This document shows positions 488-12,189 of a DNA stretch of 64,000 bases, one piece after another (positions within the stretch are counted from its first letter, which is position 1; each line of letters begins with the position of its first letter). The notes beneath the pieces were generated by a model. That model was given only the letters and a program-made list of their open reading frames with translations. It was not told the DNA's origin and searched no databases. The DNA is taken from NCBI RefSeq assembly GCF_031585635.1, contig NZ_CP134196.1, positions 744,001 to 808,000 on the forward strand, written 5' to 3'. Source of the stretch: Paraburkholderia sp. FT54 (GTDB lineage Bacteria; Pseudomonadota; Gammaproteobacteria; Burkholderiales; Burkholderiaceae). The translations under genes and the position numbers were made by a program.

Positions 488-1285
488 ATGTCACACACCC
501 TGTTTCGACGTTTCCGAGGATTGGTCACTTGCGCCCTGACGGCGGCAGCACTAGTCATGTCAGCGCCCGTCTTTTCGGCTGGCGACACTCTGAGAGTGGC
601 AACCGAGGGCACGTATCCGCCGTGGAGCTTCAAGGATGCGTCCGGCCAGCTTCAGGGCTTCGACGTGGACATTGCGAATGCCCTTTGCGCACAGATGAAG
701 ATGAAATGCCAAATCGTTGCGCAGGCATGGGACGGCATCATTCCCGGACTTCAGGCGAATCGATATGACGCAATCGTTGCGTCGATGTCGACGACGCCCG
801 CACGACGCAAGCAGGTTCTGTTCACCAACAAGTACAAGGACACCACGTCCAGCTTTATCGCGGCAAAAGACAGTGGAATAAAGGACGTCTCGCCTGCGGG
901 CCTGAAAGGCAAACGCATCGGCGTTCAACGCGGCGCATCCCAGCACCAGTGGCTGGTGGCCAACGGTTACGACAAGACGGCGTCACTCGTGCTGTATGAC
1001 GACACCCGTCAGCCGGAACTGGACCTCGTCGCAGGTCGCGTGGACCTCATCATCGGTAACAAAGCGACGTTCTATTCCGACTTCTTCAAGCGACCTGACT
1101 CGAAGGACTTCGCCTTCATTGGACCTGAATTCAAAGGCGGCGTACTCGGAGATGGGAACGCAATCGCAGTTCGTCTCGACGACACTGAGCTCTGCAATCG
1201 TATTAACGCAGCGCTGGCCGCAATCATGGTGAACGGCACCTACGACCAGATCAGAAAGAAGTATTTCCCTTTCTCTCTGATGTAA
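488..1285 (+). CDS. Polar amino-acid ABC transporter, periplasmic solute-binding protein
   Basis: A 265-aa family 3 extracellular solute-binding protein (SBP_bac_3, HisJ/ArgT-like). Residues 1-31 form a Sec signal peptide (basic FRRFR, hydrophobic core, APVFSA cleavage site). The mature protein starts with the typical TLRVATEGTYPPWSF strand and continues with GFDVDIANALC, characteristic of amino-acid binders. It should capture a polar or basic amino acid or an opine-like compound in the periplasm and deliver it to the permeases encoded just downstream. A purine-rich GAGAGAG lies before the ATG. First gene of a compact operon with two permeases, two BacA-like proteins and an ATPase. The substrate cannot be read from sequence alone. 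Confidence 0.92.
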   Translation: MSHTLFRRFRGLVTCALTAAALVMSAPVFSAGDTLRVATEGTYPPWSFKDASGQLQGFDVDIANALCAQMKMKCQIVAQAWDGIIPGLQANRYDAIVASMSTTPARRKQVLFTNKYKDTTSSFIAAKDSGIKDVSPAGLKGKRIGVQRGASQHQWLVANGYDKTASLVLYDDTRQPELDLVAGRVDLIIGNKATFYSDFFKRPDSKDFAFIGPEFKGGVLGDGNAIAVRLDDTELCNRINAALAAIMVNGTYDQIRKKYFPFSLM

Positions 1286-1298
1286 TGCGGGGACCAGC

Positions 1299-1976
1299 AT
1301 GGCTAGCTTCACTCTGAATGGTTATGGCGGACTCATTCTGCTTGGGGCCCTGATGACTCTGCTGGTCGCACTCGCGGCCACAGCGATCGGCTCGGTAATC
1401 GGAATTCTGATGGCGGCCGCCAAACTGTCTCCTGTGCGGATTCTCAGGCAGTTCGCCGGCGTGTACACGACCACGATACGAGGCGTGCCGGACCTGCTGG
1501 TCATCTTCCTTGTGTACTACGGCGGCAGCGCCACCCTTTCTCATCTCCTGGCGCGGCCGATTGAAATCAATGCGTTCGGCGCGGGTGCCGTGTCGCTCGG
1601 GCTGGTGTTTGGCGCCTATGCAACGGAAATCTTCCGCGGCGCAATCCTGGAAGTTCCGCGCGGCCAATTTGAAGCCTCCGCGGCGCTGGGGTTGACGGGC
1701 GCCAGGAGCTTTGTCCACGTCATTGCACCTCAAGCGTGGCGCCTCGCGGTACCGGCTTTCGGGAACCAGTTGACTGTCCTGCTGAAAGAGACTGCGCTTG
1801 TCTCGCTGGTTGGCCTGGAAGACCTGATGCGACGAACAGGCTTCGCCGTCGAGGCGACAAATCGCCCCTTTTTCTTCTACCTTGTCGCCGGCGTGCTGTA
1901 CTTTGTCCTCAGCTTCGCCCTGACAAACGTTTTTAGCACGGTGCGTCGCAAGACGTCGACCGCATTGGCGAGGTGA
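1299..1976 (+). CDS. Amino-acid ABC transporter permease (HisQ/OccQ type)
   Basis: A 225-aa inner-membrane permease of the HisMQ family with about five hydrophobic segments. The EAA-type cytoplasmic loop (GQFEASAALGLTGARSF, roughly residues 125-141), which docks on the ATPase, is clear. It starts 13 bp after the solute-binding gene and ends 3 bp before the second permease, so the two permeases are translationally close and probably form a heterodimeric channel. Length and loop are normal for the family. Basic amino acids, histidine or opines are typical substrates of this branch. Confidence 0.92.
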   Translation: MASFTLNGYGGLILLGALMTLLVALAATAIGSVIGILMAAAKLSPVRILRQFAGVYTTTIRGVPDLLVIFLVYYGGSATLSHLLARPIEINAFGAGAVSLGLVFGAYATEIFRGAILEVPRGQFEASAALGLTGARSFVHVIAPQAWRLAVPAFGNQLTVLLKETALVSLVGLEDLMRRTGFAVEATNRPFFFYLVAGVLYFVLSFALTNVFSTVRRKTSTALAR

Positions 1977-1979
1977 GGC

Positions 1980-2747
1980 ATGTTTGACTTCTCTTTGCTC
2001 ATTTCGAGTGTTCCGCGTCTGCTAGCGGCCTTGCCCGTCACGCTTGAGTTGTTCGTCGCCATCGTGGCCGTTGGTCTTATTGTGGGTGTGCCCACAGCGC
2101 TGGTGGGCTTGAGCTCGTCCAAGGTTCTCAGCGCTAGCGTCAAGTTTTATATCGGCGCATTCCGCGGCACGCCGGCTCTCGTGCAATTGTTCTTTATCTA
2201 CTACGGATTCGGACAGTTCTCTTTTATTCGACACTCCGTAGTCTGGCCGCTCTTGCGCGACCCGTTTATCTGTGCGGTCATTGCCTTGGGGCTGAATTCG
2301 GGCGCGTACACGGCGCGCATTCTGATGGGGGCGCTGTCCGCCGTACCCAAGGGCATCGTGGAAGCTGCCGAGGCACTGGGATTGAGTCGGGTCTCCATAC
2401 TCAGCCGCGTCAAAGCGCCGATTGCCATTCGTATTGCAATCCCCGCGTACGCGAACGAAACGATTCTGAACCTGAAGGCGACGTCTCTCGCATCGACGGT
2501 GACCATCATGGAATTGACGGGAACGTCCAAGCTGCTGGTTAGCGAGACGTATGCGCCCTATGAGATTTTCGTCGGCGCGGGAATGATCTATCTCGCGATG
2601 ACGTTTTTCCTATCGCACGCGTTCCGGATTCTCGAGGTGAACATTGCACGCAGAACAGGCAAGGACGTCAACGCCGTCAACCCTCGACAGCCTGAACAAC
2701 CCGCGATGCCGAAGTCTTCGGATTCTGGAGACGCTCACGCAGCCTGA
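1980..2747 (+). CDS. Amino-acid ABC transporter permease (HisM/OccM type)
   Basis: A 255-aa second permease of the same importer. It has hydrophobic membrane segments across the first ~230 residues and an EAA loop (VEAAEALGLSRVSIL, around residues 127-141). The C-terminus carries a ~30-residue hydrophilic Pro/Asp/Ala-rich tail after the last membrane segment, which is longer than usual and of unknown role. It starts 3 bp after the HisQ-like gene. Pairing of two different permeases with one ATPase is the classical histidine/lysine/arginine transporter layout. Confidence 0.92.
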   Translation: MFDFSLLISSVPRLLAALPVTLELFVAIVAVGLIVGVPTALVGLSSSKVLSASVKFYIGAFRGTPALVQLFFIYYGFGQFSFIRHSVVWPLLRDPFICAVIALGLNSGAYTARILMGALSAVPKGIVEAAEALGLSRVSILSRVKAPIAIRIAIPAYANETILNLKATSLASTVTIMELTGTSKLLVSETYAPYEIFVGAGMIYLAMTFFLSHAFRILEVNIARRTGKDVNAVNPRQPEQPAMPKSSDSGDAHAA

Positions 2748-2807
2748 TCCTCTCACGACTCATTTTTATAGGTGCGCTCATGCGCCTGAGTCCCTCACGC
2801 CAAGTTA

Positions 2808-3428
2808 ATGGAGAAACGCAAATTGCTTCGGTTTCTGACACTCGGACCAAGCGGTAGCAATCACGAGTTTGTGACTGCCCGATACATTCAACATCACGGC
2901 CTGGAAGGGCGAGCGTCGATGGCGCTGGTTTTGAGCTTTGACGAAGCAGCACGAATGGTGATTGACGGCGAGGCCGACTATATCGTTCAGGTTGCAGTAC
3001 ATCCTTCGACGGCTGACATTGTCGCGAAGTACCGCAAACAGCTTTTCGTCATCGACGCATTCGTCTCTTCCAGCAAAGACATGGCGGTAGTGACGCGTGT
3101 CGACGTCGACACACCCCGAACGCTCGCACTCCAGCCCGCCACGCGCGACTATGTCAACACAGATGGACTCACCCTCATTCCGGAGACGTCGACGGCATCG
3201 GTTGCGAATGGACTCCTCTCGGGCAAATACGAGAGCGGTCTGACGTACTCGTCCCTTGCCACCGAAAACCCCACCCGGTTCAGGATCGACGAGCGGATCG
3301 GCACAGTCGACGACCCCTGGATCGTCTATGGCAGCGAACGGCTGTCCGACGGGCAGGTTGTGGCCTGGAAGGAAAGCCCGGCGGCTCTGACATTCCACGC
3401 CCAGACACTCACGCGGCTCGACACCTGA
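2808..3428 (+). CDS. BacA-like protein (prephenate decarboxylase/dehydratase fold), copy 1
   Basis: A 206-aa cytoplasmic protein without signal peptide. The N-terminal TLGPSGSNHEFVTARYI resembles the GPxGTxSEyA opening of prephenate dehydratases and, more closely, of BacA, the non-aromatizing prephenate decarboxylase of bacilysin synthesis (TLGPEGTSSEYA). Near the end, DDPWIVYG sits where BacA has MSWSLFG and dehydratases have the catalytic Thr-Arg-Phe motif, so dehydratase activity is unlikely. It is paralogous to the protein at 4310-4915 (shared LGPSG.NHE, PATxDY, DDxWIVYG). It lies inside an amino-acid importer operon, between permease and ATPase genes. Role unknown: a prephenate-like enzyme, or a ligand binder, since this fold is close to type II periplasmic binding proteins. 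The ATG lacks a strong Shine-Dalgarno. Confidence 0.7.
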   Translation: MEKRKLLRFLTLGPSGSNHEFVTARYIQHHGLEGRASMALVLSFDEAARMVIDGEADYIVQVAVHPSTADIVAKYRKQLFVIDAFVSSSKDMAVVTRVDVDTPRTLALQPATRDYVNTDGLTLIPETSTASVANGLLSGKYESGLTYSSLATENPTRFRIDERIGTVDDPWIVYGSERLSDGQVVAWKESPAALTFHAQTLTRLDT

Positions 3429-3456
3429 ACCGCACGAAACGCGCAGGATTTTCGCT

Positions 3457-4212
3457 ATGAATACGATACCGAACAACGAACTCGCGATATCTATCAAGGG
3501 ACTCTCAAAGAGTTTCGGCGAGTTCAATGCACTCAATTCTATTTCGCTAAATGTCCGGCGAGGTGAAAAGATTGTTCTGTGCGGTCCGTCCGGCTCCGGA
3601 AAATCGACACTGATTCGCTGCGTGAACCGACTTGAGAGGCATGATTCGGGAGACGTTCAGGTCGACGGAATCGAGCTCACCGACAATGTGAGACACGTAC
3701 GCAGGGTACGCGCCGATGTCGGCATGGTGTTTCAGCATTTCAATCTGTTCCCGCACATGACCGTGCTGGAAAACTGCACATTGGCTCCCATGCATGTTCG
3801 TGGTCTGAAGCGGAAGGAGGCCGAAGTACGAGCGCTTGAAATGCTTGAACGCGTGCGCGTGGCGAGCCATTCCGGGAAATACCCCTCTCAGCTTTCTGGT
3901 GGCCAGCAGCAGCGGGTTGCTATCGCAAGAGCGCTTTGCATGTCGCCCACCATCATGCTTCTCGATGAACCGACGTCGGCGCTTGACCCGGAAATGGTGA
4001 GGGAGGTTCTCGACACGCTTACGCTACTCGCGCAAGACGGCATGACCATGCTTTGCGTCACCCACGAAATGGGATTTGCAAGAGCGGTGGCCGACCGCAT
4101 TCTGTTCATGGACCAGGGAGAAATCGTGGAAGACAACGAGCCTGCTCGTTTCTTTGACGCGCCGAGGACTGAGCGAGCGAGACGATTCCTCAGCCAGATG
4201 ATTCAGAAATGA
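3457..4212 (+). CDS. Polar amino-acid ABC transporter ATP-binding protein
   Basis: A 251-aa ATPase of the HisP/GlnQ family. Walker A is GPSGSGKST at residues 43-51, followed by the Q-loop VFQHFNLFPHMT, the signature [15 protein letters not shown], Walker [13 protein letters not shown] and the H-loop CVTHEMGFA. It powers the importer formed with the proteins encoded at 488-2747, acting at the cytoplasmic face of the inner membrane. It is separated from the permeases by a BacA-like gene, which ties that protein to the same transcription unit. Length and motifs are complete. Confidence 0.94.
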   Translation: MNTIPNNELAISIKGLSKSFGEFNALNSISLNVRRGEKIVLCGPSGSGKSTLIRCVNRLERHDSGDVQVDGIELTDNVRHVRRVRADVGMVFQHFNLFPHMTVLENCTLAPMHVRGLKRKEAEVRALEMLERVRVASHSGKYPSQLSGGQQQRVAIARALCMSPTIMLLDEPTSALDPEMVREVLDTLTLLAQDGMTMLCVTHEMGFARAVADRILFMDQGEIVEDNEPARFFDAPRTERARRFLSQMIQK

Positions 4213-4309
4213 ATACGTCATGTTGACGAGGCGTCAACTCGAACTCCTCGATGGGGTAGAGGCGCTTCGCCCACAGTCAACATGTTCCACGGGTTTTCAG
4301 GAGTAAAGC

Positions 4310-4915
4310 ATGGCCACAATCAGATTTGGCACCCTCGGTCCGTCCGGGACGAACCACGAGTATGTGACGCGTCGTTACATTGATTTCCACGGGCTTGAAG
4401 CTGAGATCAGGCTCTTCGATAATTTCGACGATGCGCTAGCTGCGTTCGACGCGGACGAAATTGACTATCTGATTCAGTGCGCGGTTCATCCGGATACCCC
4501 GCGAGTGATGGGCAGTAACTTCCGCGAGCGGTTCGTGGTCGACACTTTCATCTCGCCGAGTCAGACATTGGCGATTCTCACGCGCAGGGACGTGGGCAAG
4601 CCGGAAACTATCTCGCTCGTTTCCCCCGCAACCGATGACTACGCAGACCTCGGCTCGTATTCGCGGCTGATTCCGGCGGTTTCGATTCCGGTGGCTTTTG
4701 AACGACTGTTGAAGGGAGAATGCGATTCCGCGCTGGTCTATCGATACTATTTCGATTCGCAACCGGAAACGCTGAGAGTGGATGCCACTATCGGTTCACC
4801 CGATGACGCCTGGATTGTATACGGCCGGGAGCGCGTTGGAGCGGGAGAGATTGTCGCCAATCGGGAAAGCGCGGTGGCAAGGCAATTTGCAGAACTTCAG
4901 CAGTCGCGACGATAA
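4310..4915 (+). CDS. BacA-like protein (prephenate decarboxylase/dehydratase fold), copy 2
   Basis: A 201-aa cytoplasmic protein, paralogous to the product of 2808-3428 over its whole length. It opens with RFGTLGPSGTNHEYVTRRYI and has PATDDY and DDAWIVYGRERVG near the C-terminus. This copy keeps the Thr of the GPSGT motif that copy 1 has changed to Ser. The Thr-Arg-Phe catalytic motif of prephenate dehydratase is absent. A GGAGTAAAGC Shine-Dalgarno region precedes the ATG, which lies 97 bp after the ATPase stop codon. It is the last plus-strand gene of the cluster and converges with an XRE-cupin regulator. The assignment is by motif and layout; no substrate is visible. Confidence 0.7.
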   Translation: MATIRFGTLGPSGTNHEYVTRRYIDFHGLEAEIRLFDNFDDALAAFDADEIDYLIQCAVHPDTPRVMGSNFRERFVVDTFISPSQTLAILTRRDVGKPETISLVSPATDDYADLGSYSRLIPAVSIPVAFERLLKGECDSALVYRYYFDSQPETLRVDATIGSPDDAWIVYGRERVGAGEIVANRESAVARQFAELQQSRR

Positions 4916-4964
4916 GCCGTTACGTGCAATAAGCGCCGGTGCGTGAGGGTATGGTCTCTATTTG

Positions 4965-5618
4965 TTAGCTGTATTCGCGGATGTTGAAGAATACTGCGAG
5001 AAACTTGACAGGCACGCTTTCGATTTCTTCCGGACCATGCGCCGCATTCGGGTCGAACAGCAAGCTATCGCCGGGTTTCAGATCGTAGAGTCGATTGGCG
5101 TATCGGTATTTCATCTTGCCTTCCAGTACGTGAAGGAACTGAATACCCGTTGTCTGGTGGGTCGACCACGGCTGGGACTTTTCGTCGAGCGTAACGACAT
5201 ACGGCTCCACGGAAAGATTTCCTGACAATACGTGGCCAACGAGCCGATAAATGTGGCCGTACGACGAACCCTCCCTGTCGACAGTCACGCCTTGTCCAGC
5301 GGGTACGAACGAGCAGTCGTGGCGTTCACTCTGGTCGACGAAAAAGCGCGACACGGGTTTGCCTAGGGCATTGGCAAGCCGTGTGAGAGTTTCTATCGAC
5401 GGTGTAGCCGTTCCTTTTTCGATTCTGGAGAGCATCGAATGGGAAATGCCGGCCATTTTCGCGAGGGTGCCCGAAGCAATTCCTGCTGACGTTCGGAAGG
5501 CATGAATCTGTGCAGCCAGAGCACGGGACACTTTTTCTACTGCGGGGTCCGGCTGCTTCTCTGCTACCTCGATGCCCGGAGAATCTTCAGCGGGCGGCTG
5601 ACTCTGAGTTTTTGGCAT
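4965..5618 (-). CDS. XRE-family transcriptional regulator with C-terminal cupin domain
   Basis: A 217-aa regulator. The helix-turn-helix covers about residues 30-92 (AGISHSMLSRIEKGTATPSI), and a small cupin sensor domain about 130-210 (HVLEGKMKYRY, LKPGDSLLFDPNAAHG). Such proteins usually repress transport or catabolic genes and bind a small metabolite in the cupin. The start at 5618 is chosen because GAAGG lies a few bases upstream; an upstream extension would overlap the divergent acetyltransferase promoter. It converges with the BacA-like gene and diverges from the GNAT gene, so it probably controls this block. Confidence 0.88.
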   Translation of the reverse strand: MPKTQSQPPAEDSPGIEVAEKQPDPAVEKVSRALAAQIHAFRTSAGIASGTLAKMAGISHSMLSRIEKGTATPSIETLTRLANALGKPVSRFFVDQSERHDCSFVPAGQGVTVDREGSSYGHIYRLVGHVLSGNLSVEPYVVTLDEKSQPWSTHQTTGIQFLHVLEGKMKYRYANRLYDLKPGDSLLFDPNAAHGPEEIESVPVKFLAVFFNIREYS

Positions 5619-5746
5619 GGTGCCTTCAGTGAAGGAGCAGTTCAAAGATGACGACTTGCTGTCATTATATGAGGCATTGTTGAGGATGAGTGTCAGGGCA
5701 ACGGTTTTTTGGCTGCGCCACGCGCGATAGTAAGGAGATTGCCTCG

Positions 5747-6193
5747 ATGCTGATTCGCCCTGTTGCACCGGCCGATGCACATTGCGTTGCGCACCTTGTG
5801 GAAGATCTTCTGGCGGAGCTTCACCATGGCGAACCTGAACCCGCGGACCGGGTGTCTATCGCTGAAGCCGTTCTGAGCCATACGAGTCGCAGCTTCGGAT
5901 ATCTGGCGCTAGAAGGTGAGAGTCCGGTGGGCGTCCTTCTCATGACAGAAGGAGTGGCAATATACGCGGGAGGGGCCTTCGGGCAGATTACTGAGTTATA
6001 TGTCCGACCGGAATGCCGGTGTGGTGGATTAGCCGCGACGCTGGTCCGGGAAGCCGCGAGGTTCGGCAAGGAACGCGGATGGAAGCGACTCGACGTTGGC
6101 GCTCCTCGTCAGCCCCGTTGGGCCCGCACGCTTGCGTTCTACCTGTCCGTGGGTTTTGTCGAGGTTGGACCACGATTGCGCCTTGACTTGTGA
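5747..6193 (+). CDS. GNAT-family N-acetyltransferase
   Basis: A 148-aa acetyltransferase. It begins LIRPVAPADAHCVAHLVEDL, the usual GNAT start, and carries the acetyl-CoA-binding motif A in ITELYVRPECRCGGLAATLV (about residues 80-99), followed by FYLSVGFVEVGPRLRLDL. These enzymes transfer an acetyl group from acetyl-CoA to an amine; here the substrate may be the compound imported or degraded by the neighbouring genes. The start at 5747 is preceded by TAAGGAG 9 bases upstream. It is divergent from the XRE-cupin regulator with a 128-bp gap and is followed 57 bp later by the RidA-like gene. Confidence 0.85.
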   Translation: MLIRPVAPADAHCVAHLVEDLLAELHHGEPEPADRVSIAEAVLSHTSRSFGYLALEGESPVGVLLMTEGVAIYAGGAFGQITELYVRPECRCGGLAATLVREAARFGKERGWKRLDVGAPRQPRWARTLAFYLSVGFVEVGPRLRLDL

Positions 6194-6250
6194 TGTTGTC
6201 CGTCAAGCAGATTGACCGCACCGAAACACGAACTTCGCCGAGGTAAAAAA

Positions 6251-6664
6251 ATGAGCAAGATTGAGCGCCTGCGATTGCCCGAAAACGATGAAACGTTCGG
6301 CGGCAACAAGATTTTCGATCTTTTTCAGTATTCGCCTGCTGTGTCGGCGAACGGTCTGGTCTTCATTGCAGGGCAGGTCGGGTTGCGAGCGGACGGGAGC
6401 ATTCCCGTGTCGGCTGAAGAGCAAATTGATTGGGCGTTCAGGCGTGCCGAAGTCATTCTTCGGCACCTCGGTCTCGACTTCACCGACCTCGTTGAACTGG
6501 TTTCGTATCACGTGGACGTGGCGTCACAACTCAATGATTTCCGGGCCGTCAAGGAGCGTTACATCCGTTCCGACTTCCCCGCATGGACGATTCTCGGGGT
6601 GGCGTCGCTGGCGCGTCCCGAGTTGCTAATCGAAATCAAGATGGTCGCGGCGCTGCGGAAATAA
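6251..6664 (+). CDS. RidA/YjgF-family enamine/imine deaminase-like protein
   Basis: A 137-aa single-domain RidA-superfamily protein. It has FDLFQYSPAVSANGLVFIAG near residue 20 and ends with SLARPELLIEIKMVAALRK, containing the conserved Arg before the Pro-x5-E motif that binds carboxylates in active deaminases. Family members hydrolyse reactive enamine or imine intermediates made by PLP enzymes or amine oxidases, or act in specific catabolic pathways. The start at 6251 follows GAGGTAAAAAA. It is probably co-transcribed with the upstream acetyltransferase and converges with the alpha/beta hydrolase. A role in the same amino-acid or amine pathway is inferred. Confidence 0.85.
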   Translation: MSKIERLRLPENDETFGGNKIFDLFQYSPAVSANGLVFIAGQVGLRADGSIPVSAEEQIDWAFRRAEVILRHLGLDFTDLVELVSYHVDVASQLNDFRAVKERYIRSDFPAWTILGVASLARPELLIEIKMVAALRK

Positions 6665-6757
6665 CTCAATATCCGTTCGAATGCCGACGAGCAATACCGT
6701 GGCCCCTTTGAGGTTCTCGATAGGCCGCTCGCCGAACGCCGAACCGAACCGCCGCAA

Positions 6758-7609
6758 TCAGAAACTGACGAACGCCTGCACGAGCCGGTTGAACGCGCCG
6801 GCGTTCGACACATTCATGCCGTGCGACGCGCTGGCGATGGTTTGCCGCTCCGCATAGTCGATCCATTCCGCGAGTTTTTCGACGTTGTTGCGGAACATGC
6901 GAGGGCTGCGCTGCCCGTCGATCAGCAACGTCCTGCATTTCACGTCGCGTGCCGTTTCACGGGAATAGGCGGGCAACGGATCGCGGAGCTGCTTGGGCAG
7001 CGTGCCCGCGTTGTCGATCGCCATGGTGCGGAACGCAAGCGGGCTCTTGCGCCATGAGCCGGGCACGCTCACCGAATCGACGAAAAGCTCCAGACCCGCG
7101 TCGATCTGCTGGCTCTCGATGAGTTCAGCGACGCGCGCACGCAGCACATTAGTCGTGGCCGGCAGTGTCGCGTCCGGCATCCCGTCGATCTGCAACGGAC
7201 CGCCGGGGTCCGCGAGCGTCAGCGTTTTCACGAGCCGCGGATTTTCGCGCGCGACATGAAACGCCACGCAGCCGCCGCGCGAATGCCCAACGAGATGGAC
7301 AGGCCCAAGGTCGATCGCCTCGATGAACTCGGCCAGCTCGGCGACATGCGTCTGCCAGCCGAACTCGCCCTGGATGCAGGCCTCGCTCGCCGGCCAGTAG
7401 TGGCTCAGGCTCACTGAGATGCAGCGGAAATGCTGGGAGAGCGCCGCGGTTTGCGCATTCCAGTAGCGATAGTCGCAAAGCGACCCGTGCACGAACACGA
7501 GCGGCTCGCCTTCTCCGCACTCGACGTACGGCACGCAGATGCCCGATGCGATGGTCGCAAACGACAGTTCGGGTACGGCAAGCACTGAGAGGTCGGTACG
7601 GGCGTTCAT
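6758..7609 (-). CDS. Alpha/beta-fold hydrolase
   Basis: A 283-aa serine hydrolase of the alpha/beta superfamily. The oxyanion-hole HG lies in VFVHGSLCDYRYW (about residue 41), the nucleophile elbow GHSRGG places Ser110, and the catalytic His is probably in ASHGMN near the end. No signal peptide, so cytoplasmic. The start codon at 7609 follows GGAG on the minus strand. It is divergently arranged with a LysR regulator that begins within 100 bp, the classical layout for a LysR-controlled enzyme. The exact substrate (ester, lactone, peptide or C-C bond) is unknown. Confidence 0.87.
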   Translation of the reverse strand: MNARTDLSVLAVPELSFATIASGICVPYVECGEGEPLVFVHGSLCDYRYWNAQTAALSQHFRCISVSLSHYWPASEACIQGEFGWQTHVAELAEFIEAIDLGPVHLVGHSRGGCVAFHVARENPRLVKTLTLADPGGPLQIDGMPDATLPATTNVLRARVAELIESQQIDAGLELFVDSVSVPGSWRKSPLAFRTMAIDNAGTLPKQLRDPLPAYSRETARDVKCRTLLIDGQRSPRMFRNNVEKLAEWIDYAERQTIASASHGMNVSNAGAFNRLVQAFVSF

Positions 7610-7704
7610 GGACTGGCTCCTTTGCGGCCACTATGCCCGATGTCGCTATTTTAGAAAAACGCGTAATATTGATCGAATCTATCTACTTTTCTGATACCAG
7701 CCAA

Positions 7705-8556
7705 TTGAAAGCTCTCGACCTGGACGTGATGACCATGATCGTCGCCGTCGCGGACACCGGCAATATCAGCCGGGCGGCGGAAGTCGTGCATCGTTCGCAA
7801 TCGGCGGTGAGCATGCAGATCAAGACGCTCGAGACCGCGCTCGGCAAGCCGCTTTTCGTGCGCAAGCCGAGAAGCGTGGTGCCGACGCAGGACGGCGAAG
7901 TCCTGCTGACCTACGCTCGCCGCATGCTCGCATTGCGCGACGAGGCGTGGGCGGCGGTGGTTCGGCCAGACGTCACCGGGCGCGTGAGCATCGGCGTGCC
8001 GGACGATTACGCGTCGTCGCTGCTGCCGCCGATCCTCAAGAAGTTTTCGGCGACCTACCCGAAGGTGGAGATTCAGGTTGTCGGTTTGCCGAGCGTCGCA
8101 CTCGCGCCGATGGTGAAAGATGGTTCGGTCGACCTGGTGTGTGCGACGCGAGTCAAGGGCCTGTCGGGCGAGTTCATTCGTCTCGAGCCGATGGAATGGG
8201 CGGCGGCGCCGAGTGCCGATGAGATATGGCGCGAACGGCCGTTGCCGATTGCCGTGTTTTTGCCGGGCAGCGTGGCGCGCGAGAACGCGATTCGCAGCCT
8301 CGAGCGGGCCAGGATTGCCTACCGCACCTCGTATGAAAGTCCGAGTCTGCTGGGCCTGCTGTCGATGGCCGAAGCGGGCCTGGCAATCGTGCCGCTCGCG
8401 CGATGCGCGGTGCCGGCACACTTCACGCTCCTTGGGCGTGCGCACGGATTGCCCGAGATTCCCGCGCTCGAAATGGTGCTGGCGCGCAGCACGGCATCGA
8501 ATCGTCCGCCGTGCGATTTTCTGGCGGAGAAGATCGTCTCCGAGTTGCGGCGCTAG
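7705..8556 (+). CDS. LysR-family transcriptional regulator
   Basis: A 283-aa regulator when started at the TTG at 7705 (LKALDLDVMTMIVAVADTGN), which places the winged helix at residues 4-62 (ISRAAEVVHRSQSAVSMQIK) as in most LysR proteins. An ATG at 7633 would add 24 residues but leave only 23 bp to the divergent hydrolase gene, too little for a promoter, so 7705 is preferred. The effector-binding domain follows from about residue 88 (GRVSIGVPDDYASSLLPPIL). It probably activates the divergent alpha/beta hydrolase gene. Confidence 0.88.
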   Translation: MKALDLDVMTMIVAVADTGNISRAAEVVHRSQSAVSMQIKTLETALGKPLFVRKPRSVVPTQDGEVLLTYARRMLALRDEAWAAVVRPDVTGRVSIGVPDDYASSLLPPILKKFSATYPKVEIQVVGLPSVALAPMVKDGSVDLVCATRVKGLSGEFIRLEPMEWAAAPSADEIWRERPLPIAVFLPGSVARENAIRSLERARIAYRTSYESPSLLGLLSMAEAGLAIVPLARCAVPAHFTLLGRAHGLPEIPALEMVLARSTASNRPPCDFLAEKIVSELRR

Positions 8557-8667
8557 TCTTTTCTTGCGATCGCTGTGCCGAATGCGGTCGGACGTCATCG
8601 CCGCGTTTTATGGATTGCTCGCGGCGCAACCCCGGTTGCAGATCGCGCGTGAAAGCGCAGTAAATGG

Positions 8668-8691
8668 GCCGGCCCTCGCAAGAGGGCCGGC
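8668..8691 (-). terminator. Strong hairpin terminator of the lipoprotein gene
   Basis: A perfect 10-bp GC-rich stem (GCCGGCCCTC / GAGGGCCGGC) closed by a GCAA-type four-base loop, 12 bp beyond the minus-strand stop codon at 8704. On the minus strand it is followed only by a weak T-rich stretch. It also lies downstream of the plus-strand LysR gene and could end both transcripts. Confidence 0.7.
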
Positions 8692-8703
8692 ACGTGCCCG
8701 CGA

Positions 8704-10872
8704 TCAGCTCGGATCAGCGTACTTCAGCGTCCAGCTCAACGTGCGATTGCTGCCTGCCGTCAAGGCGAAAGGATGCGTCGTACAAGTGAAGTTCGAATGC
8801 AACTGCCCAATCGGCGTGGTGGACAGCGGATTGGTGACGCCGGCCGCCATCTCGAAGTTAGACAGCGCGCAACCGTCGAAACCCGTGGTGCCATAGCTGG
8901 TCGCATTGCTGTTCGCGTACTTGACCGAAAACCCATCGCTATTCGCCGTCGTGTTCTGGAAGTCCGCAAACGACGTGAAATCCGTCTCGACCGCAATGTT
9001 GCCGGTCAGCGTTGCGGAGCTCAGCGTATCGGACCGGGTCATCGTGCCATGAGCGAACGTCAACACCGTATGGACCTGCAAGTCGATGTCCGTGGCGTAC
9101 GTTGCGTTCTTGACGGCTTGCCGGAATTTGGCCGTGTCGAACGACACCACAACCTGGCCGTTGTTTTCCTGGACACTCAGATTCTTGTAGTACGTGACCG
9201 GAATGTAGGTTTTGCCGTTATAGGTCACCTGCGGAATCAATAACGCGTAGCCCAGATCCGTTGTTCCGTAGATCAGCTTGTCGGAGAACGGGGTCGGGTA
9301 ATACGGCGTGTACGAGTTGTAGTCGGGCGCCTGGCTCAAGTTGAGATTGATGACGCGCTTGCCGTCTCGCACTGTGACGAGCGCCGCGCTGTACGGATGA
9401 GCCGTATCGCCGGGCAAGTTGTACCAGGTCAACGTGTAATGCGCTCTTGCATCCAGCCACGCTTGCAGGTCAGTGTCGGACATGGGCGCCTTGCTGCCGA
9501 ACCCCAGTTTGTCCCACCACGCATTCACGTACATGTACTGGTGCAGCAGGCTGAAATTCTCACCCATGACACGAGGTTTGCCGCGATACGTATCGGTGCC
9601 GCGGCCTTTCACCCACATATTCACTGACGGCGTGGGCAGTGTCGGGTCGTACCAGAACGTGTCGAAGCGGTAAGCCGCCTTGTAGATGAACGAGTAGGCG
9701 ACCTGCATCTCCTGCGCGGAGAGTACGCCTGCGTTGGCCGCTGCCGTGAGGACTTCCATGAAGGCCGAATCGCCGTATGGGCCGATGGATCGGCCGTAGT
9801 TGAAACCCTGGCCGTCGGCATTGAGTTGCGGAAGAATCAGATCGACCGATTTGCGCAGATACGATTTCAGCTCCGGCGTCAGATTGGCCTCATTGCCCAT
9901 TTCGAACGTTCGCTCGACCACTTCACCGATCAGGAGCGTGCTGTACCGGTCGAAGCGCGCCTGATCATGGTAAGTGGTGTGGGTATTCGAAGCTTCGTCG
10001 GAAAAGCCGCCGGAGGAATCGTTTCGAATGTGGTTGGTGAGCGTGTACAGAAGCGCATCGCGCGCGCCCATCGATGCCACGGTCGGATCGGTTTTCGACG
10101 AGAAGCCCGGATTGCTCCACCCGAGTTTTTGTCGCAAGCCCGCAATGCCGTAGGAAACCGCATAGTAGTTTTGAGCGGTATTGAGCGATGCGACGTCGAT
10201 CGGCACGCCGGCGGCCGGGCATGTATTGGTCTTGCCGCTTGCATCCGCGCCGAACATGTCGCAGAAGGTCAGGCGATTTTGCAGCGTGGTCAGCATGGCG
10301 TCGCTGAAGACTTCATTGAGCATGCCGTGCGCTTTGAAATTGTTTAACGCAACCAGGTAGTAGTACTCGCCCCAGGATGTATTCGCATATGTGTAGTCGG
10401 TGCCGTGCATCTGCGTCATCATCGCGGTCGTAATTTTCTGGTACGTCGCGAGATAGTCCGCGTATTTCGGATCGCCTTTGGCTTTCATGTCGATCAGTAT
10501 GTACGACAGGCCAAGTGCCAGCTTACCCGGCAGGAATTTATCCCCCGTGTTGGTATCCAGCACATGAACGGGGCTGCCGTCGCCAAGATCCATCACCACT
10601 TGCGTGAAATCAGGCGCTTTCTTGATCAGGTCGAAGAGCGCTCTCATCTGTCCCATCATGGTGATGGGAACGCCGGCACCCGACGGGACGCTCGTATCCG
10701 GCGCGCCGTAGACAATTCCGTGAAGAGAGACGGCTGCGCTTTGCGACGGATTGTTCGGGGGGGTGGCCGGATTGCCCGGGCTGTCGTTCATGCTGCCACC
10801 GCAAGCGGTGACGAGAAGAGCGGTGAGCGTGCTGAGCGCAAACGCAAACGAGGGTTTTCCTGGTGAAAGCAT
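8704..10872 (-). CDS. Large secreted lipoprotein of unknown function, possibly polysaccharide-lyase-like
   Basis: A 722-aa protein with a lipoprotein signal peptide (LLVTACGG places the lipidated Cys at about residue 24) and a Pro/Asn/Ser linker to residue ~48. Residues about 60-400 are helix-rich with a His/Tyr-rich stretch (SNTHTTYHDQARFDRYS and FNYGRSIGPYGDSAFMEV). Residues about 450-720 look like beta-sandwich. A helical toroid followed by a beta-sandwich, with conserved His and Tyr, is the plan of PL8- and heparinase-type lyases, so a polysaccharide-degrading role is plausible but inferred from architecture only. No carbohydrate transporter or sugar-metabolism genes lie beside it. A strong terminator follows. 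Confidence 0.6.
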   Translation of the reverse strand: MLSPGKPSFAFALSTLTALLVTACGGSMNDSPGNPATPPNNPSQSAAVSLHGIVYGAPDTSVPSGAGVPITMMGQMRALFDLIKKAPDFTQVVMDLGDGSPVHVLDTNTGDKFLPGKLALGLSYILIDMKAKGDPKYADYLATYQKITTAMMTQMHGTDYTYANTSWGEYYYLVALNNFKAHGMLNEVFSDAMLTTLQNRLTFCDMFGADASGKTNTCPAAGVPIDVASLNTAQNYYAVSYGIAGLRQKLGWSNPGFSSKTDPTVASMGARDALLYTLTNHIRNDSSGGFSDEASNTHTTYHDQARFDRYSTLLIGEVVERTFEMGNEANLTPELKSYLRKSVDLILPQLNADGQGFNYGRSIGPYGDSAFMEVLTAAANAGVLSAQEMQVAYSFIYKAAYRFDTFWYDPTLPTPSVNMWVKGRGTDTYRGKPRVMGENFSLLHQYMYVNAWWDKLGFGSKAPMSDTDLQAWLDARAHYTLTWYNLPGDTAHPYSAALVTVRDGKRVINLNLSQAPDYNSYTPYYPTPFSDKLIYGTTDLGYALLIPQVTYNGKTYIPVTYYKNLSVQENNGQVVVSFDTAKFRQAVKNATYATDIDLQVHTVLTFAHGTMTRSDTLSSATLTGNIAVETDFTSFADFQNTTANSDGFSVKYANSNATSYGTTGFDGCALSNFEMAAGVTNPLSTTPIGQLHSNFTCTTHPFALTAGSNRTLSWTLKYADPS

Positions 10873-11592
10873 GTTGTCTCCAGTTTTATTTGATCGATGC
10901 CTGATTCACATTTTTAGTCATGTATTACTTGTCTTTTCTTCTCCTTCGATAAGTAAAAGCAAATGCATTTTCATGGGTCGCATTCCACGCCGTTCAAAGC
11001 GGGCGGAATCAGGGCGAGTTGTCCCGGCAGCCTCGCCGGCACTGGCAACTGATGTGGGTCTTGATAACGGCGTCAGGCTATAGTCATAAGTCGTCAGACA
11101 ACAATAAACGAGCACGCCATCTATCAGACACCCGTACCCGTGCGGTCTCCGTTGCGCCGGAATTCGGCACTCATACGTCGACGTAAACGGCATATGTGCA
11201 GAATCAGGCAACAGTGAGGCACGCCGCGCAGAGCGTGGCAACGAACCAACCTAGCCGTGAAATATTTTGTAAGTGGTAGGAGATCATATCTCTGGCGAGA
11301 TGGCAAGTGTCATTTGAAAAGTCTGAAAAGCGCGGCGTGGAGCTTGTCGCTGAAGCCAGCGCTGATAGTTGCCCGCAAAAGTTTTTTCGCGGCTTAACGC
11401 AATGGCGAAAATCGTCGGTTGAAGGCGAGGACCAATAGCGAGTCGAATTGGAATGTGCGTTGTTTCGGCAAACCGCGGGTTCGCTTCGAGATGTGGCGGA
11501 CCGCCCGCAGTTCATTCACATTCGAGAACAATCCTCTCCACGGACGGCCCTTATTCTCAAACGCGCACCTTTCTAGACTGTCGTCACTGAAT
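10873..11592. other. Long intergenic region without recognisable gene
   Basis: About 720 bp between the minus-strand lipoprotein gene and the DUF4148 gene. The first ~100 bp are AT-rich with several T-runs and probably hold the promoter of the lipoprotein gene. The rest has moderate GC, stop codons in all frames and no family I recognise. I found no tRNA-like cloverleaf or insertion-sequence ends in it. Confidence 0.5.
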
Positions 11593-11612
11593 TACGAACA
11601 GGGCTGTTCGTA
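11593..11612. promoter_or_regulatory. Perfect 9-bp inverted repeat upstream of DUF4148 gene
   Basis: The arms TACGAACAG and CTGTTCGTA are exact reverse complements separated by GG. The element ends 32 bp before the start codon at 11645. It is either an operator for a dimeric regulator or a hairpin in the 5' untranslated region. No neighbouring regulator is an obvious partner. Confidence 0.5.
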
Positions 11613-11644
11613 GCAGACCAAGCGAAGTGTGGAGAGTCATCATC

Positions 11645-11953
11645 ATGAAGTCCCTTATTCAAGCCGTTGTGGTTGCCGTTGCCCTTGCAGCGCCGGTTGC
11701 CGTGTTCGCTCAATCGAACTCGCCTGTCACCCGTGCGCAAGTGCGTGCCGAGTTGCTCGAACTCGAACAGGCCGGCTATAACCCCGCCCACGGTGAAGAC
11801 CCGAACTATCCGGCCGATATTCAGGCTGCTGAAGCGCGGGTGGCGGCGCGGCACGCGGCGACGGGTTTTGGCGGCACTGCGAGCGGCTCGTCGGACGCGG
11901 GACGTGTGCCGGTCTCCAGTTCGGATTGGAATGCGATGTACAACCATCCGTGA
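11645..11953 (+). CDS. DUF4148 domain-containing periplasmic protein
   Basis: A 102-aa exported protein. Residues 1-22 are a signal peptide (VVVAVALAAPVAVFA then QSNSPV). The mature part has the DUF4148 signature: TRAQVRAELLELEQAGYNPA followed by DPNYPADIQAAEARVAA, and a flexible Gly/Ser-rich C-terminus. DUF4148 proteins are abundant in Burkholderia and relatives; their function is unknown. The ATG at 11645 is preferred over an upstream GTG because it starts exactly at a normal signal peptide. It stands alone, with a palindrome upstream. Confidence 0.88.
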   Translation: MKSLIQAVVVAVALAAPVAVFAQSNSPVTRAQVRAELLELEQAGYNPAHGEDPNYPADIQAAEARVAARHAATGFGGTASGSSDAGRVPVSSSDWNAMYNHP

Positions 11954-12189
11954 TGAGTGGTGCGGGAATGCGCGAGTTCGCGCGGCATACAGCCGGATCA
12001 CCGTCATGCTGAACGGGCCGCCGCTTTCACCGGCGTGCATAACGGCGCTACGAATATGCCAGGTTTCAGGCGAATGACGATCCGGCTTTGAGCCTTGCGA
12101 GCTATACGCCGGTGTGAGCGGTGTTAAGGCGGCGAGGCACCGCGTGCAGTGAGCCGGTGCCCATGCTCCGCCTTCAAGGCGAGCAGCGG

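Follow-up and report, generated by a model that had tools for sequence, protein, structure and literature searches.

BacL, a protein family of the prephenate dehydratase/BacA fold linked to importer genes, and its possible connection with chorismate-type acids

The two BacA-like proteins encoded in the window (the whole stretch of 64,000 nucleotides of Paraburkholderia sp. FT54 DNA analysed here), which we call BacL1 and BacL2, are members of an as yet unnamed family from a known fold superfamily, and it is the family's own residue signature together with its consistent genetic setting that is new. A gene of an importer dependent on a solute-binding protein (SBP) lies within 5.2 kb of BacL in all 67 loci surveyed and within 1.6 kb in 65 of them. 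Tentatively, and with a chance that we put just short of even, we propose that BacL1 and BacL2 are enzymes for an imported acid of the chorismate/prephenate type and not for an ordinary amino acid; catalysis, cytosolic location, substrate class and transfer to the window are what we infer in this proposal. BacL would then define a further active site of the prephenate dehydratase (PDT)/BacA type and give a function to a family whose members are nearly all called 'hypothetical protein'.

The window locus and the BacL family

The genes for the SBP, both permeases, BacL1, the ATPase and BacL2 lie on one strand with short gaps (Table 1), and this order confirms an earlier note on this DNA, which had described a complete polar amino-acid ABC importer with a BacA-like protein encoded on either side of its ATPase gene. 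BacL1 and BacL2 are 44% identical. The absence of a dipeptide ligase was also correctly observed there: Pfam and NCBIfam scans of ten window genes (488-7609) recognised no ligase gene of a bacilysin-type neighbourhood, nor any opine-degradation gene. Neither a chorismate mutase nor an aminodeoxychorismate (ADC) synthase was found in the 16 kb around the window BacL genes (locus L034); the two chorismate mutases of this genome lie away from the BacL locus, and no ADC-synthase-like gene was found in the genome at E 1e-80. The XRE-cupin gene may start near 5645, its versions in two relatives (L002 and L003) being called as 226 aa. On the minus strand of the window, positions 8704-10872 hold an ORF of 722 aa with a lipoprotein-like start.

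Table 1. Genes at the BacL locus of the window
Feature	Position	Strand	Basis or remark
Flavin monooxygenase-like gene, tail only	start of window, upstream of SBP gene		
SBP (SBP_bac_3, LAO-like)	488..1285	+	Pfam SBP_bac_3, 145.8 bits; pocket residues, N replacing LAO D161
ABC permease A (HisQ/ArtQ-like)	1299..1976	+	Pfam/NCBIfam scan
ABC permease B (ArtM/HisM-like)	1980..2747	+	Pfam/NCBIfam scan
BacL1	2808..3428	+	Importer-linked PDT/BacA-type family
ABC ATPase (GlnQ/EhuA-like)	3457..4212	+	Pfam/NCBIfam scan
BacL2	4310..4915	+	PDT/BacA fold; clade-mate of Bosea and Prosthecomicrobium proteins
XRE-cupin regulator, convergent	4965..5780	-	Pfam HTH_3 and Cupin_2
GNAT acetyltransferase	5690..6193	+	Start probably downstream of 5690; present in L002-L005 too
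RidA-family protein	6212..6664	+	Caballeronia locus L005 has one; none found in L002-L004

BacA is the prephenate decarboxylase of bacilysin synthesis, and several database names agree with it as a prephenate enzyme. Judged by sequence comparison, the label BacA-like correctly names the superfamily of the window proteins but misidentifies the proteins themselves, because the BacL residue set differs from that of BacA. Placement in the PDT/BacA superfamily, as the earlier note had it, is borne out by profile comparison (hhalign): BacL aligned with a 37-sequence BacA alignment over 183 columns (E 3.6e-17, 19% identity), a full-length but remote homology, and with an alignment made from four CM-PDT sequences plus a PDT-like one over 63 columns only (E 3e-5). 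The AlphaFold model of BacL2, built from a 75-sequence alignment (mean pLDDT 96.4), has prephenate dehydratases as its top structural relatives, which points to a predicted PDT fold. Like BacA (204 aa), BacL proteins are of similar length and carry a Trp at the same aligned place; unlike BacA, they have lost its motif residues and stand in an importer operon in place of bacilysin genes.

BacL1 and BacL2 score 14.5 and 17.0 bits against Pfam PDT (PF00800), below the cut-off of 25.2, and have no NCBIfam match, no Pfam match to an ACT domain and no convincing sequence relative in the PDB; across the family, 43 of 75 members match Pfam PDT at E <= 1 (best E 4.8e-5). The Thr-Arg-Phe (TRF) motif of dehydratases, which the earlier note had described as lacking, is absent from both proteins at the aligned place, which reads D-x-W in BacL when aligned through BacA, the direct BacL-PDT alignment ending before that place. 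GqqA (7am0), an AHL acylase with the PDT fold, differs from BacL by keeping its ACT domain; BacL is importer-linked.

In a tree of 85 proteins (54 BacL from the ABC/TTT side, 20 from the TRAP side and 11 BacA), BacA and BacL are separated with 100/100 support on long branches. Residues N15, H16, Y23, Q56, H60, D78, F80, S84, Y111, D166 and W168 are kept in at least 95% of BacL proteins on both sides; T108 also reaches 95% in this joint alignment, yet falls below 90% in the 75-sequence one. In the BacL2 model, N15 and H16 are predicted to open the first helix, H60 and S84 to lie in loops, and D78, D166 and W168 in long strands. Where BacL has N15, H16, H60, S84 and D166, the residues of BacA are S, S, Y, T and M; W168 is common to both. 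Conversely, the BacA invariants S32 S33, Y81, T103 P104, H129, T169 N170 and M190 are replaced in BacL, so that BacL has mainly the TLGPxG loop and the Trp in common with the BacA invariants (SS after the glycine loop, AY, TP, SHP, TN, IPMSW), and identification of the window proteins as prephenate decarboxylases is not supported. No export signal was seen on reading the starts of BacL1 and BacL2 by eye. Source databases name family members 'hypothetical' or 'uncharacterized', except P0061 (substrate-binding protein), and a search by title or abstract start, with subscription journals mostly outside its coverage, found no publication describing the family.

Importer neighbourhoods, copy number and distribution

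The surveyed loci came from a scan of a genome collection (27 loci) and from whole-genome searches, and were picked by protein similarity and not by context. Stretches were taken for 22 of 40 matches in the genus of Variovorax sp. OK212 (hereafter the Variovorax genus) and for 18 of 20 matches in g195, a genus of the same class. Duplicates (L027, L122 and L139), loci shorter than 5.5 kb and non-BacL loci (L001, L035-L037, L046 and L047) were left out before the total of 67 was reached. Genes in the relatives were called with our own script, and some contigs are short, so absences within 8 kb are partly incomplete.

Importers of different classes accompany BacL: 31 loci have a polar amino-acid ABC system, 15 a TTT system (TctC receptor), 20 a TAXI-TRAP system, in which NMT1_3 and DctM were found in the loci tested, and one (L134) a looser ABC arrangement, its ABC genes lying 3.2 kb from BacL. 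The importer neighbourhood is conserved outside the window too. In 28 of the 31 ABC loci, permease and ATPase genes directly enclose BacL; the exceptions are the Bosea and Prosthecomicrobium loci (L006 and L007), where BacL stands between the SBP and permease genes and no ATPase gene of the same type was found nearby, and L008, which is near a contig end. This gene order is a stronger fact than proximity to an importer, because the base rate of importer genes nearby in such genomes is probably sizeable.

Several window neighbours named in the earlier note as parts of a possible pathway recurred rarely or not at all. The flavin monooxygenase gene is beside BacL in no other locus screened (those up to L037), GNAT is limited to five Burkholderiaceae loci, and RidA occurs in two of those five and in L130; on this survey all three were rejected as core parts. 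The XRE-cupin regulator is frequent: its gene is found in 30 of the 67 loci at 8 kb or less from BacL, and in none of the 20 TRAP loci. IlvD and GFO/IDH were considered as pathway partners in TRAP loci and set aside. Ten of the 20 TRAP loci have an IlvD gene at 200 bases or less, but the one tested (L144) passes the cut-off for a housekeeping dihydroxy-acid dehydratase and has lon and hslO genes near it, so the association of IlvD may be a matter of position only.

The pairing of two BacL proteins, which the earlier note had seen as a potential heterodimer, is not the rule. A single BacL is present in 61 of the 67 loci, which excludes an obligate heterodimer as a general feature, and the window copies belong to different clades. 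BacL2 groups with the Bosea and Prosthecomicrobium proteins (support 100/99) and BacL1 falls outside that clade, which led us to reject a recent tandem duplication; the tree carries a long-branch warning for the joining of L136 with the BacL2 group, and how its main clades are ordered among themselves is uncertain.

At the order level, at least 1 of 399 genomes is positive for BacL (the window's own genome only), and at the phylum level at least 5 of 398, counting this genome and two weak matches; these surveys scored no more than 8 candidates per genome. The family sample gave 4 of 200, namely the same genome and three weak matches, one of which (L035) fits BacA better. BacL is present in 32 of 100 genomes of the Variovorax genus and in 20 of 37 genomes of g195.

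Chorismate mutase and ADC-synthase-like genes

Of the 67 loci, 30 have a chorismate mutase gene at 8 kb or less from BacL (16/31 ABC, 13/15 TTT and 0/20 TRAP loci, plus L134), and none was found within the stretch examined in the other 15 ABC loci or in any TRAP locus; the Paraburkholderia, Caballeronia, Bosea and Prosthecomicrobium loci are among those lacking one. Because the link was seen in one part of the set only, the Variovorax genus and its neighbours, these counts are not independent. Two kinds of mutase are involved. Proteins like the AroQ-gamma mutase of L018 occur in 15 ABC loci and L134, and short CM-like proteins without a signal are the kind found in 13 TTT loci and in a single ABC locus. 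One representative of each kind exceeded its NCBIfam cut-off (L018, TIGR01806, AroQ-gamma; L021, TIGR01803), and all five AroQ-gamma-type sequences read have signal-peptide-like starts. In L133, TctC, mutase and BacL follow one another with gaps of 17 and 6 bases. On the minus strand at L133:8021-15199, facing these genes, is a run encoding an EamA carrier, an ADC-synthase-like protein, an MFS exporter and an HpaB-like oxygenase, which looks like a biosynthetic cluster.

A fused GATase-PabB-like protein is encoded in nine loci, eight of which also have an EamA carrier gene. Both proteins of this type that were tested exceed the pabB cut-off TIGR00553, and the one from L018 has 4-amino-4-deoxychorismate synthase (8hx6, 681 bits) as its best PDB match. 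At L136:6371-7225, between a TctC gene and BacL and 59 bases from the latter, a PDT-like protein is encoded. Its start resembles a signal peptide, it has a TRW motif, and it scores 139 bits against NF008865 (below the cut-off of 219).

Within the Variovorax genus, an extra mutase was found in 27 of 29 BacL-positive and 2 of 20 BacL-negative genomes (Fisher P 3e-9, kinship ignored), and 25 of the 29 have it no farther than 8 kb from BacL. An ADC-synthase-like gene was present in 20 of 23 BacL-positive and 1 of 12 BacL-negative genomes (P 9e-6, kinship ignored); with eight genomes removed in which the synthase had been seen at the locus beforehand, the contrast was 12/15 versus 1/12 (P 3e-4, kinship again ignored). 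The mutase scan covered 29 of the 32 BacL-positive genomes, the other three each having a nearby mutase (L017, L019 and L159), and 20 of the 68 BacL-negative ones, and the synthase scan 23 of 32 and 12 of 68. The scanned genomes were hand-picked, some of the BacL-positive ones after their locus was known, and 'extra' was defined post hoc as any mutase match except the PheA type and one of about 74 bits and 124 aa. BacL-negative status was rechecked with a family profile in 13 of the 20 genomes, including all 12 of the synthase contrast. One genome of the genus (G974; C13:129806 and C18:100227) has a short mutase of the BacL-locus type and an ADC-synthase-like gene, and no BacL by the family profile.

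Binding-protein pocket and candidate functions

Asn takes the place of LAO Asp161, the residue that binds the alpha-amine, in every one of the 27 SBPs that ABC loci provided, so these proteins lack the Asp161 of an LAO-type amino-acid SBP. They further differ from LAO by D11 to E, F17 to W, F52 to W, S69 to A and L117 to Q, and the carboxylate-binding R77 is kept. Asn161 occurred in none of 23 readable paralogues from four genomes, 12 of which have Asp; this check covered 26 of 36 non-BacL matches, three with a gap at 161, and the distant ones align poorly. Because D161 is lost and R77 kept, the ligand is probably a carboxylate without a free alpha-amine, as far as pocket residues can indicate.

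In the reading that we prefer, the SBP-dependent importer would bring in a carboxylic acid of the chorismate/prephenate kind, on which the apparently cytosolic BacL would act, with cyclohexadienyl keto acids, for instance prephenate or 4-amino-4-deoxyprephenate, as candidate substrates. In Variovorax, the imported acid is most likely chorismate-derived; assigning the same substrate to the window, with neither mutase nor synthase genes nearby, is an extrapolation. This reading is favoured by the PDT fold, the remote homology to BacA, the conserved residue set, the linkage to importer, mutase and ADC-synthase-like genes and the altered SBP pocket. Weighing against it are the ABC and TRAP loci that lack a mutase, the likeness of the pocket to that of OccJ, and genome G974 with its mutase and synthase genes but no BacL. 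A broader scheme, in our judgement distinctly unlikely, makes BacL a new enzyme class that ends a shikimate-pathway branch running outside the cytoplasm. An ADC-synthase-like enzyme of Variovorax would make aminodeoxychorismate (or chorismate) and the EamA carrier would export it, an exported or cytosolic chorismate mutase would rearrange the product, an ABC or TTT importer would retrieve it, and BacL would finish the route. Paraburkholderia, Caballeronia, Bosea and Prosthecomicrobium, with importer and BacL and without the synthesis genes, would scavenge their neighbours' compound, as happens with siderophores or opines.

Shikimate-pathway enzymes outside the cytoplasm have a parallel in exported fusions of chorismate mutase and cyclohexadienyl dehydratase, some of which stand beside solute-binding and transport genes and for which only signalling or uptake-related roles were suggested (PMC10520331). 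Unlike those fusions, the exported-type mutase of BacL loci is a separate protein, and its PDT-fold neighbour belongs to an importer operon. BacL loci may help to explain why some bacteria have shikimate-pathway enzymes outside the cell membrane, and they offer a defined set of genes for finding the imported compound and its reaction: a mutase of the exported type or a cytosolic one, an importer whose pocket is modified, and a PDT-fold partner.

The pocket also bears on a less likely but serious alternative, in which BacL is an enzyme but the window substrate is opine-like or another N-substituted basic amino acid, the chorismate link being an adaptation specific to Variovorax. The opine importers OccJ and NocT likewise have an LAO-type SBP without the alpha-amine Asp, and OccJ carries the same D161 replacement (PMC5740067 Table 3, PMC4192606); all 27 SBPs share E11, Y14, W17, W52, A69, R77, Q117 and N161 with OccJ, and those of Paraburkholderia share S72 in addition (PMC5740067 Table 3). 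Nopaline- and octopine-binding proteins appear among the PDB sequence matches, ranked below LAO, and the four genera without a nearby mutase, like the TRAP loci, agree with such a substrate. However, the window SBP has only seven of the ten OccJ signature residues, differing at N111, T163 and A164, and it keeps Q122, the residue that had to be mutated to Ala for LAO to bind octopine (PMC5740067), and Asn202 of OccJ is itself reported as not critical for octopine (PMC5740067/PMC4192606). A PDT-fold partner is absent from the descriptions of OccJ and NocT in the accessible parts of these papers, the window scan gave no opine-degradation gene, and amino-deoxyprephenate would equally fit a distal cation combined with a carboxylate and a keto acid.

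That BacL is a non-catalytic cytosolic receptor, sensing the imported solute and signalling, for example, to the XRE-cupin regulator, seems to us unlikely, given that this regulator is missing from all 20 TRAP loci. His, Asp, Asn, Ser and Trp residues kept so strictly in divergent proteins would be more typical of catalysis, and no attached output domain was seen among proteins up to 1.75 times the query length, a bound that longer fusions could escape. A divergent BacA, that is, a prephenate decarboxylase serving antibiotic-type biosynthesis, is highly improbable: full-length homology, W168 at the BacA Trp and the biosynthetic look of L133 speak for it, and the replaced BacA invariants, the long and fully supported branches between the two groups and the lack of a ligase among the ten window genes scanned against it.

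A separate observation concerns the non-BacL locus L035, of the family Burkholderiaceae, where positions 7415-12165 hold a cluster of RraA-like, BacA-like, class IV aminotransferase, 2OG-Fe dioxygenase and AMP-binding genes. Its BacA-like protein aligns with the BacA alignment at E 3.8e-23, and the cluster, which gene calls in L036 and L037 resemble, is possibly an undescribed amino-acid-type pathway.
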